Shown here piece after piece: positions 25,933 through 28,137 of a stretch of DNA of 28,203 bases. A model generated the notes under the pieces. The model did no database searches and had not been told where the DNA came from. It saw only the letters and a program-made list of their open reading frames with translations. The stretch's first letter is position 1. Every line of letters starts with the position of its first letter. Position numbers and translations under genes: made by a program. Source of the stretch: a virus; the IMG/VR virus record IMGVR_UViG_3300009104_000096, positions 1-28,203 of that record; one strand, given 5' to 3'.

Positions 25933-25960
25933 TTGACTTTGTTTAATAAAAGTCTAAAAT
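25933..25960 (+). promoter_or_regulatory. Sigma70-like promoter for the ATPase unit
   Basis: A -35 box TTGACT (25933-25938) and -10 box TAAAAT (25955-25960) are separated by 16 bases. A tract of almost pure A (25899-25918) lies upstream, like an UP element. Transcription would begin near 25967, leaving about 40 bases of leader before the ATG at 26006. Confidence 0.6.
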
Positions 25961-25990: not shown

Positions 25991-26008
25991 TAGGAGAAAC
26001 AGACCATG
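25991..26008 (+). promoter_or_regulatory. Leader/ribosome site, copy 1
   Basis: TAGGAGAAACAGACCATG: AGGAG lies 9 bases before the ATG of the ATPase gene. The same 18 bases occur before the third plus-strand gene at 28120-28137. Confidence 0.8.
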
Positions 26009-27259
26009 CCACTAGCGTTATCGAAAAAGATTGAAATGAAAATCAGATCGGAGAGATGGAAACAGATCGCGGTTGTCAACGCGGGAAAAGAAATTTGCCG
26101 GCAGTACGGGCACAAGCTTCCAAACGCAAACCGAGTTTGGAAAGGTGAAAATCCAAAAAAGAAATTGATTGAGTATTTGATCAAACATTATGAAGCGGAG
26201 ATGGCGGCCATTCTAGCTATTGACGTTTCACAATATGAAACAGCCGATCAAGTTAGGGATCGGCGCAATAAAGAATTGAAAGAGGAAAAAGAAAAAACTG
26301 TTTCAACTCCTCCGAACATAACTGACCAAAGCAACGGCTCGGATATTTTTAATGACGGCTTTATTGACGAAATCGTCCGACGTGTTCAAGAGAAAGCCGT
26401 AAACCATGAGCAAGTAGATCAAATTGTAAAACAAGCGGTCGAGAAAGCGATTGACGGGCGACCCGTTCAAAAAGTTTTGGTCGATAAATCTGGAACGGTG
26501 ATAAAAGAAATGCCGAAAGTCACCAGCAAGTATTTTAAGCAAGTTGTGGAAATGGCAACCACGGAAGACGTAAACGTTTGTATGGTCGGTCCAGCGGGTT
26601 GCGGGAAAACTTTTCTGGCAAAGCAAGTTGCCGAAAGTTTGGAAATGAATTATGTATCTGTTTCAATAACGGCGGGAGTTTCGGAGGGGAATTTGACTGG
26701 CTGGTTATTGCCGATCGGCGCTTCTGGAAAATTCTTGCATGTGGACTCGGTAGTTTTGAAAGCATGGCAAGATGGCAATTCTTTAATTTTAATTGACGAA
26801 ATGGACGCTGGCGATCCGAATACGCTTTTAATCGCAAATCAAATGTTAGCCAACGGATATATGTTTTTGCCAATGCGACATGAGGAACCAGAGGTTAAAA
26901 GAGGGGAGAATGTTATTGTTTTGGCCGCTATGAATACGAACGGGACAGGCGCAAATATGCAATATTCTGGGCGGAATCAACTCGACCAAGCGACATTAAA
27001 TCGCTTCTTTTTTGTTCTGATGGACTATGATTCGGCACTTGAAAGAGAATTAATACAGGGAGTTTCGGAGCTTCACGATTGGGCAGAACAAATCCGAAAG
27101 AAAATATCCGAGTATAAAATAGCCAGACCTCTTTCAACTCGCCAATTAAAAGGCTATGCCAATTTAATGAAAAAACAAAATTGGACAATGTCTAAAGTTG
27201 AATCCAACTATTTCTGCACATGGTCAGCGGATGAGAAAAGAAAGGTGGTGGCGGCGTGA
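26006..27259 (+). CDS. CobS/MoxR-type AAA+ ATPase, 417 aa
   Basis: The ATPase core is complete: Walker A GPAGCGKT (residues 195-202), Walker B LILIDEMD (260-267), sensor 1 Asn in AAMNTNG (Asn 310) and an arginine finger in DQATLNRF (Arg 333), followed by a C-terminal lid with ARPLSTRQLKGYANL. This spacing is that of the MoxR/CobS family, which works as a hexamer with a vWA-domain partner to insert metals or remodel complexes. The first 190 residues are phage-specific: a basic helical part (RWKQIAVVNAGKEICRQYG), then a charged linker and paired helices (IDEIVRRVQEKAVNHEQVDQ). Its stop overlaps the next gene by GTGA. Cyanophage CobS-annotated proteins are the closest kind I know. Its target is unknown. 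Confidence 0.9.
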   Translation: MPLALSKKIEMKIRSERWKQIAVVNAGKEICRQYGHKLPNANRVWKGENPKKKLIEYLIKHYEAEMAAILAIDVSQYETADQVRDRRNKELKEEKEKTVSTPPNITDQSNGSDIFNDGFIDEIVRRVQEKAVNHEQVDQIVKQAVEKAIDGRPVQKVLVDKSGTVIKEMPKVTSKYFKQVVEMATTEDVNVCMVGPAGCGKTFLAKQVAESLEMNYVSVSITAGVSEGNLTGWLLPIGASGKFLHVDSVVLKAWQDGNSLILIDEMDAGDPNTLLIANQMLANGYMFLPMRHEEPEVKRGENVIVLAAMNTNGTGANMQYSGRNQLDQATLNRFFFVLMDYDSALERELIQGVSELHDWAEQIRKKISEYKIARPLSTRQLKGYANLMKKQNWTMSKVESNYFCTWSADEKRKVVAA

Positions 27260-28077
27260 ATTACCAAGATAACGATAGGATAGATTTTGACTCGGTTCAA
27301 GAAGTTTATAACATGCCAGATCCAATAACAGATAGAAACAAAGATACATGGGAAAGCCAAGAAAATCGATCTCATGGCGTATCAGGGTGGTACGGACTTG
27401 GGGATACTACCCGTCAAGAAGCTAAGGATATTGTCAGAGATGGATGGTTAGTAGGCGCAGAAAAAGTTGAGGAAATGAGCGGGCAGATTTCTCTTCCGAC
27501 TTTGGAATCAATTCAAAGAAAATTGGTGCGCGGTGATATTGGAGACTTTTGCGATCCACACCAAATTAACCGTGGGCAATTTTCAACGGCTTGGACTTCC
27601 AAGAAACGGCGACTCGGCACGGGTCCCAAACGTTATCAACTTTGTTGTCAGATCGGCGGAAATTGTTATGTGGATTGTGAGGAAATGTTATGGAGAGCGG
27701 TTGCATGTTTGGCGCTTGCGGAGTCAATTTCTAAAGCTGGACATGCCGTTGAAATAATCGCATTTTGTAACGTAGCGGATTGTTTTACAAGAAATGGCGG
27801 TGGGCAAATTTGCACCGTTAAAGTCAAACCTTTTGAAGCTTATCTGGACTTGTCCAATCTAGCGGTAACTTTGGGACTATCTGGTTTTTATAGAATATAT
27901 ATGTGGAAAGCCAGACTCGCCCATCCCACAAAAAATGTTAGCTTAGGAATGGGTAGATCAACCGATCGGCTTCCAGCTATTGAATCTGGAAACGCAACCC
28001 AGATCAAAATAGATGGAGATATTACTAGCAAGTCGGATGCGGAATACTTCTTAAACAATATAGCGGACAAGCTATAA
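27256..28077 (+). CDS. Cys-rich putative partner of the ATPase (degenerate vWA-like), 273 aa
   Basis: Starts at a GTG overlapping the ATPase stop (GTGA), with AAGGTGG upstream, so the pair is co-translated. The conserved-looking core is residues 125-190: strand YQLCCQIGGN, CYVDCEEMLWRAVACLALAE helix, then GHAVEIIAFCNVADCF strand. A strand, a helix beginning with small or polar residues and a second strand VEIIAF is the opening of a vWA-like fold, but the DxSxS metal site is replaced by GGNCYVDCEEM. Nine Cys lie between residues about 98 and 190, which could bind metal or form a cluster. The N-terminus (SHGVSGWYGLGDTTRQEAKD) is also distinctive. I have seen similar proteins beside phage ATPases, without known function. 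Fold assignment is by eye. Confidence 0.55.
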   Translation: MNYQDNDRIDFDSVQEVYNMPDPITDRNKDTWESQENRSHGVSGWYGLGDTTRQEAKDIVRDGWLVGAEKVEEMSGQISLPTLESIQRKLVRGDIGDFCDPHQINRGQFSTAWTSKKRRLGTGPKRYQLCCQIGGNCYVDCEEMLWRAVACLALAESISKAGHAVEIIAFCNVADCFTRNGGGQICTVKVKPFEAYLDLSNLAVTLGLSGFYRIYMWKARLAHPTKNVSLGMGRSTDRLPAIESGNATQIKIDGDITSKSDAEYFLNNIADKL

Positions 28078-28086
28078 ACACCAACG

Positions 28087-28120
28087 GCGGGCATTTCGCC
28101 CGCTTCAACTTTTAAATTTT
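28087..28120 (+). terminator. Weak intrinsic terminator or attenuator
   Basis: GCGGGC and GCCCGC form a perfect 6-bp GC stem (28087-28103) with a 5-base loop, followed by TTCAACTTTTAAATTTT. It begins 9 bases after the partner-gene stop and ends just before the leader of the next gene, so it could reduce read-through between them. Confidence 0.5.
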
Positions 28121-28137
28121 AGGAGAAACAGACCATG
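28120..28137 (+). promoter_or_regulatory. Leader/ribosome site, copy 2
   Basis: Same 18 bases as at 25991-26008, ending in the ATG of the third plus-strand gene. Confidence 0.8.

Follow-up and report, generated by a model that had tools for sequence, protein, structure and literature searches.

A conserved gene pair of phages and bacteria encodes a MoxR-type AAA+ ATPase and a DUF7192 protein with a predicted, MIDAS-less vWA fold

The window analysed here is a stretch of 28,203 nucleotides of IMG/VR virus record IMGVR_UViG_3300009104_000096, a partial virus record, and statements on gene content cover that part. Its right end carries two plus-strand open reading frames, one of 417 aa with an ATG start at 26006 and one of 273 aa with a GTG start at 27256. 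The two genes overlap by GTGA, with the stop codon of the first (TGA, 27257-27259) running into the start codon of the second (GTG, 27256-27258), an arrangement already described in the original prediction. The pair diverges from a leftward block that includes endolysin, terminase, portal and head genes. The features of the locus are as follows.

25933-25960, plus strand: sigma-70-like promoter 5' of the pair, TTGACT-16 nt-TAAAAT (10 of 12 consensus positions; a consensus match only)
25992-26008, plus strand: ribosome-binding leader AGGAGAAACAGACCATG of the ATPase gene
26006-27259, plus strand: AAA+ ATPase, MoxR-type (CbbQ/NorQ/CobS-like), phrog_249 (from the reading frame, profile matches and an AlphaFold model)
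26588-26611, plus strand: Walker A, GPAGCGKT, residues 195-202 (family alignments)
26687-26743, plus strand: helix-2 insert region, residues 228-246, modelled as a beta hairpin (AlphaFold; role from PMC13036017)
26795-26800, plus strand: Walker B acidic pair, D264-E265 (family alignments)
27002-27004, plus strand: putative arginine finger R333 (invariant in family alignments)
27256-28077, plus strand: DUF7192 partner with a predicted divergent vWA fold and no MIDAS (Pfam, model and alignments)
27517-27594, plus strand: conserved block R88...GDxxD...G...AW, residues 88-113, before the first core strand; putative finger equivalent (in alignments it falls on the GxLD finger region that classical partners have)
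27649-27663, plus strand: degenerate MIDAS position, QIGGN in place of DxSxS, residues 132-136 (alignments)
28087-28103, no strand assigned (reported on the minus strand by the scan): GC-rich hairpin between the pair and the next gene

The pair had been proposed to form the first unit of a rightward transcript, which is plausible because a sigma-70-like promoter precedes it and a hairpin separates it from the next gene, beginning at 28135; the promoter scan, however, is barely above chance, with nine promoter-like sites against 5.2 expected. The 17-base leader occurs in two exact copies in the window (25992-26008 and 28121-28137), compared with 0.01 expected. One copy precedes the ATPase gene and the other the gene that follows the pair; together they represent a repeated translation-start cassette.

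The first protein is a complete AAA+ ATPase of the CobS/MoxR type, belonging to the CbbQ/NorQ/CobS group, as originally proposed. It matches Pfam AAA_5 and phrog_249, labelled 'porphyrin biosynthesis', and possesses all of the core motifs attributed to it: Walker A, Walker B, sensor 1 (N310), the arginine finger and sensor 2 (R379) are invariant or nearly so across the family. The AlphaFold model is confident from residue 170 onward, while the N-terminal 150 residues are poorly predicted, and the high-confidence part includes the hairpin strands of the helix-2 insert (233-235/244-246) and of the pre-sensor-1 region (285-287/296-298). Modelled alone, the ATPase finds its best structural match in NorQ (Z 20.5, rmsd 2.5, 234 aligned), followed by CbbQ (Z 20.1), after which scores drop to ~17 for Mdn1 and McrB. 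Relatives of this ATPase occur in at least 607 phage records, many of them labelled 'porphyrin biosynthesis' or CobS. The closest ATPases to that of the window come from Planctomycetota contigs, at 36-38% identity, a possible hint at the host, and one Planctomycetota bin, H5_PLA8 (L060, L059), carries two copies of the pair.

The second protein is, on the evidence of models and alignments, a divergent vWA-fold partner whose metal site (MIDAS) has been lost, an assignment that draws on several agreeing lines with modest scores. It matches Pfam DUF7192 (PF23822) over residues 8-269 (E 9e-27, 94.5 bits against a gathering score of 27), together with two function-less PHROGs, 1909 and 35469. An AlphaFold model built from 22 sequences (pLDDT 86, pTM 0.82) retrieves from the PDB, as the top Foldseek matches, the NorD vWA chains of NorQ-NorD complexes (E 3.8e-4, prob 0.99, with a low TM-score of 0.23). 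VIA-align likewise places NorD first with a modest score (Z 8.7, rmsd 7.4, 179 aligned), and the MIDAS domain of Rea1 next (Z 8.3, rmsd 3.8, 152 aligned), while the BFVD viral structure library returns DUF7192 proteins first, followed by CobT-like and VWFA phage proteins. Thus, the two models, searched separately, select the two chains of one complex. The partner had been described as not a standard vWA protein; this stands with respect to the missing MIDAS, but the protein is not unrelated to vWA domains, as it is predicted to adopt a vWA-type fold best matched by NorD and belongs to a described family.

Alignments of sequence profiles point in the same direction. Classical vWA partners from phages GMA7, P74-26 and Cantare, three cyanophages and E. 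coli ViaA align with DUF7192 around the first core strand with a score of 23.8; the highest score among 50 column shuffles was 14.5. In this alignment, QIGGN falls on DxSxS and GD.xD falls on the GxLD finger region before the strand; the profile-profile probability is just 11% (E 0.0027, a single comparison). A search of the DUF7192 profile against PDB sequences returned no match, and a whole-length alignment with the cyanophage proteins annotated as 'peptidases' failed, with only the finger-to-strand region aligning. The DxSxS motif is absent from 56 of 57 DUF7192 members, the one exception (L050) still having DVTAS at the MIDAS position. Other residues are strongly conserved, including G96 (98%), K191 (93%), and R213 and G233 (both 100%), while the sequence of the NorD C-terminal contact is not conserved in DUF7192. 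The description of the partner as Cys-rich is true of the window protein, which has nine cysteines in 273 aa and no CxxC, but not of the family, in which homologues have 0-9 cysteines and no cysteine column is conserved in more than 9 of 22. A zinc-ribbon or cysteine-based function was rejected because the cysteines are not conserved.

The pairing of the two genes, the absence of which from related phages would have counted against the original prediction, recurs in other phages and extends to bacteria. A non-redundant set of 65 loci from phages, viral contigs and bacteria was selected by the ATPase alone; a DUF7192 gene lies beside the ATPase in 58, and six of the seven exceptions are cut off by the sequence end. 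In all eight annotated phages of this type (Acinetobacter Bestia, Staphylococcus K, Listeria LP-125 and P70, Gordonia Sephiroth, Mycobacterium Wyatt2, Tunturiibacter Tunturi_4 and Alteromonas PT11-V19), the neighbour is DUF7192 by Pfam's own model. Viral contigs were picked by a Walker-B DNA pattern alone, alignments of diverse members being too divergent for pattern searching, and nearly all of those with the ATPase have an adjoining DUF7192 reading frame on the same strand. Bacterial contigs, also picked by the ATPase alone and left out of the profile building, have DUF7192 adjacent or within ~1.4 kb in 29 of 32 cases. Two more end at the ATPase, and only L084 is without DUF7192; reading it with table 4 changed nothing. 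Many of the bacterial loci come from metagenome bins, where contamination by phage sequence is possible.

The two genes share a strand in all 56 loci compared, with the partner downstream in 52 and upstream in four, and 4-nt overlaps are frequent. The distance matrices of the two families correlate with r=0.79 (maximum of 0.12 in 2000 permutations), which supports co-inheritance rather than contact, since linkage alone can produce such a value. Neither protein, used alone to scan viral contigs for close relatives, gave a match. Several loci depart from the simple arrangement. In Bestia, a reverse-strand gene (L002 13887-14759) with DUF4379 zinc-finger and MUG113 (GIY-YIG-like) matches, perhaps a homing endonuclease, lies between the ATPase and its partner. 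Wyatt2 gene 121 (L007 7382-8113) encodes a stand-alone second DUF7192, ~3 kb from the pair, that outscores the paired copy against Pfam, and an uncultured Clostridia contig (L085 4900-6713) has one ATPase gene followed by two tandem DUF7192 genes. In three Saprospiraceae/Bacteroidia loci (L066, L067 and L089), the pair sits amid housekeeping genes (dnaN, recA, a GNAT acetyltransferase, pheS and LptF/G), apparently a rare chromosomal version outside prophages. The Saprospiraceae chromosomal copy does not belong to the core genes of its order: among 150 genomes it is found in one, the seed itself.

The client is not encoded beside the pair. No third recurrent gene that could be a client candidate was found within 6 kb across lineages. 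The view of a self-contained phage machine in the original prediction fits the two-gene cassette, but not a restriction to phages, as bacterial genomes carry the pair too, some of them in a chromosomal setting. Across 19 viral loci, neighbours match helicases, RecE and Cas4 exonucleases, DNA polymerase, SSB, ParB and methyltransferase; of the 25 most frequent families, terminase alone relates to morphogenesis. In bacteria, the pair is found close to dnaN and recA (L066), clamp-loader-like genes (L060, L062) or a UmuD-like gene (L086), and elsewhere close to pheS (L067) or LptF/G (L089). The neighbourhood thus weakly favours a client in DNA metabolism or a host complex over one in virion assembly. 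Anti-phage defence was also considered; in PADLOC the partner had no match, and the matches of the ATPase were all of a generic P-loop kind.

A chaperone that remodels a capsid or tail protein has precedents: in PMC7824862, virion assembly is proposed for jumbo-phage MoxR-vWA pairs and reported for Acidianus two-tailed virus, and the depositor of the vB_SauM-515A1 record named the ATPase a 'structural protein'. Yet in that same phage the late-promoter region covers 36-66 kb and does not include the pair, which is located at 19.4-21.4 kb, and in the window it diverges from the structural genes. The replication- and recombination-type neighbours, and the presence of the pair on bacterial chromosomes with no virion genes at hand, also argue against this role, which we regard as unlikely. 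An even smaller likelihood attaches to a cobaltochelatase helper, in which the ATPase would act as CobS and the partner as a substitute for CobT, driving host CobN to supply more cobalamin for phage DNA synthesis. The annotation 'porphyrin biosynthesis' and the CobS structures among the sequence matches of the ATPase speak for it, and PMC8651126 proposes that viral CobST hijacks host CobN. By score, however, the ATPase is not a CobS equivalog, reaching 26.5 bits against a cutoff of 558.55 for NCBIfam CobS (TIGR01650), and its fold is closer to NorQ/CbbQ, while the partner has lost the MIDAS. None of the 12 phage records has CobN, and it is missing in 11 of the 12 bacterial genomes that carry the pair, two of which are isolates; ribonucleotide reductase (RNR) is absent from half of the phages. 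A cobaltochelatase role is therefore poorly supported, and the two-gene cassette has no linked metal-insertion gene, in agreement with the original observation that none is visible in the window.

It could also be argued that the ATPase and its neighbour act independently although they are inherited together, given that adjacency and mirror trees are no proof of contact and that the second DUF7192 of Wyatt2 has no ATPase of its own. Near-universal adjacency, the frequent short overlaps and a pairing that is kept when gene order is inverted make this highly improbable, as does the independent choice by both folds of two chains of one known complex.

We consider it probable that the pair forms the two halves of a MoxR-type AAA+/vWA remodelling machine, with DUF7192 as a MIDAS-less adaptor in the ATPase ring. 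Several features of NorQD provide a template. There the ATPase hexamer is plugged by a single vWA partner, which has its finger in the pore, in contact with the helix-2 inserts, and is rotated by nucleotide cycles; mutations in the NorD MIDAS abolish action on the client but spare binding to NorQ (PMC13036017; PMC9976466). By homology, we infer that the ATPase most likely assembles a hexameric ring of the CbbQ/NorQ/CobS kind, which DUF7192 most likely plugs as a vWA-fold adaptor, and that a finger from the N-terminal segment of DUF7192 would be inserted in the central pore, where it would press on the helix-2 inserts. On hydrolysis of ATP, the adaptor would be rotated or pulled, straining a client held by DUF7192. 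NorD acts on its client through the MIDAS; as DUF7192 has lost this site, a different surface, possibly the one near the invariant R213 and G233, would grip the client without metal. With the fold and pre-strand block kept and the MIDAS lost, DUF7192 may represent an adaptor that still docks in the ring but holds its client differently. A bolder and more tentative possibility is that DUF7192 founds a distinct class of AAA+ adaptor, a metal-less vWA domain with a new client-gripping surface, within a phage-spread cassette that remodels the replisome or another host complex during takeover and has been domesticated by some bacteria.

Recognizing DUF7192 as a degenerate vWA partner would unite a domain of unknown function and a questionable annotation in a single machine that can be tested. 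Many relatives of the ATPase are read as vitamin-metabolism genes from their labels, and 'porphyrin biosynthesis' looks wrong for them. Among the carriers are Staphylococcus kayviruses and Listeria phages, groups that phage therapy employs or that are studied in that context. The pair would also provide an example from nature of a MoxR partner that functions in the absence of the MIDAS, which has been proposed as the client site in other classical vWA partners in addition to NorD.

The proteins of the window are members of Pfam DUF7192 and PHROGs 249, 1909 and 35469, entries that carry either no function or a wrong-looking one; no paper in the collection searched names DUF7192, and a PubMed Central search on the ATPase label found no functional study. 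Viral cobST clusters, including a mislabelled cyanophage 'peptidase', and the MoxR-vWA pairs of jumbo phages are described in PMC8651126 and PMC7824862, respectively, and the available parts of both accounts do not mention DUF7192. The cyanophage 'peptidases' beside CobS (L011 2354-4576, L012 2679-4820 and L014 1282-3495) combine an HEVGH-type metalloprotease motif with an intact DWSGSM MIDAS and have no Pfam matches.

Of the known systems, NorQ-NorD, a MoxR AAA+/vWA chaperone for nitric oxide reductase, is the best structural match for both proteins, and it shares with the pair adjacent genes for a helix-2-insert ATPase and a vWA-fold partner. Unlike NorD, DUF7192 lacks the DxSxS-T-D MIDAS required for the client as well as the long N-terminal domain and linker, and no NOR genes lie near the pair. 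The rubisco activase CbbQ-CbbO has an ATPase fold nearly as close, but there is no rubisco here, and the partner is short and has no MIDAS. CobS-CobT, including the viral 'cobST' of cyanophages and haloviruses, shares a related ATPase and a pairing conserved in tailed viruses. Cyanophage partners keep DWSGSM and the GxLD finger region, whereas here DUF7192 stands in place of the CobT/vWA partner. Among 12 phages, DUF7192 is present in all eight of one type and in none of the four with classical vWA partners; the two partner types are mutually exclusive in this set, as if DUF7192 had replaced the classical vWA partner.
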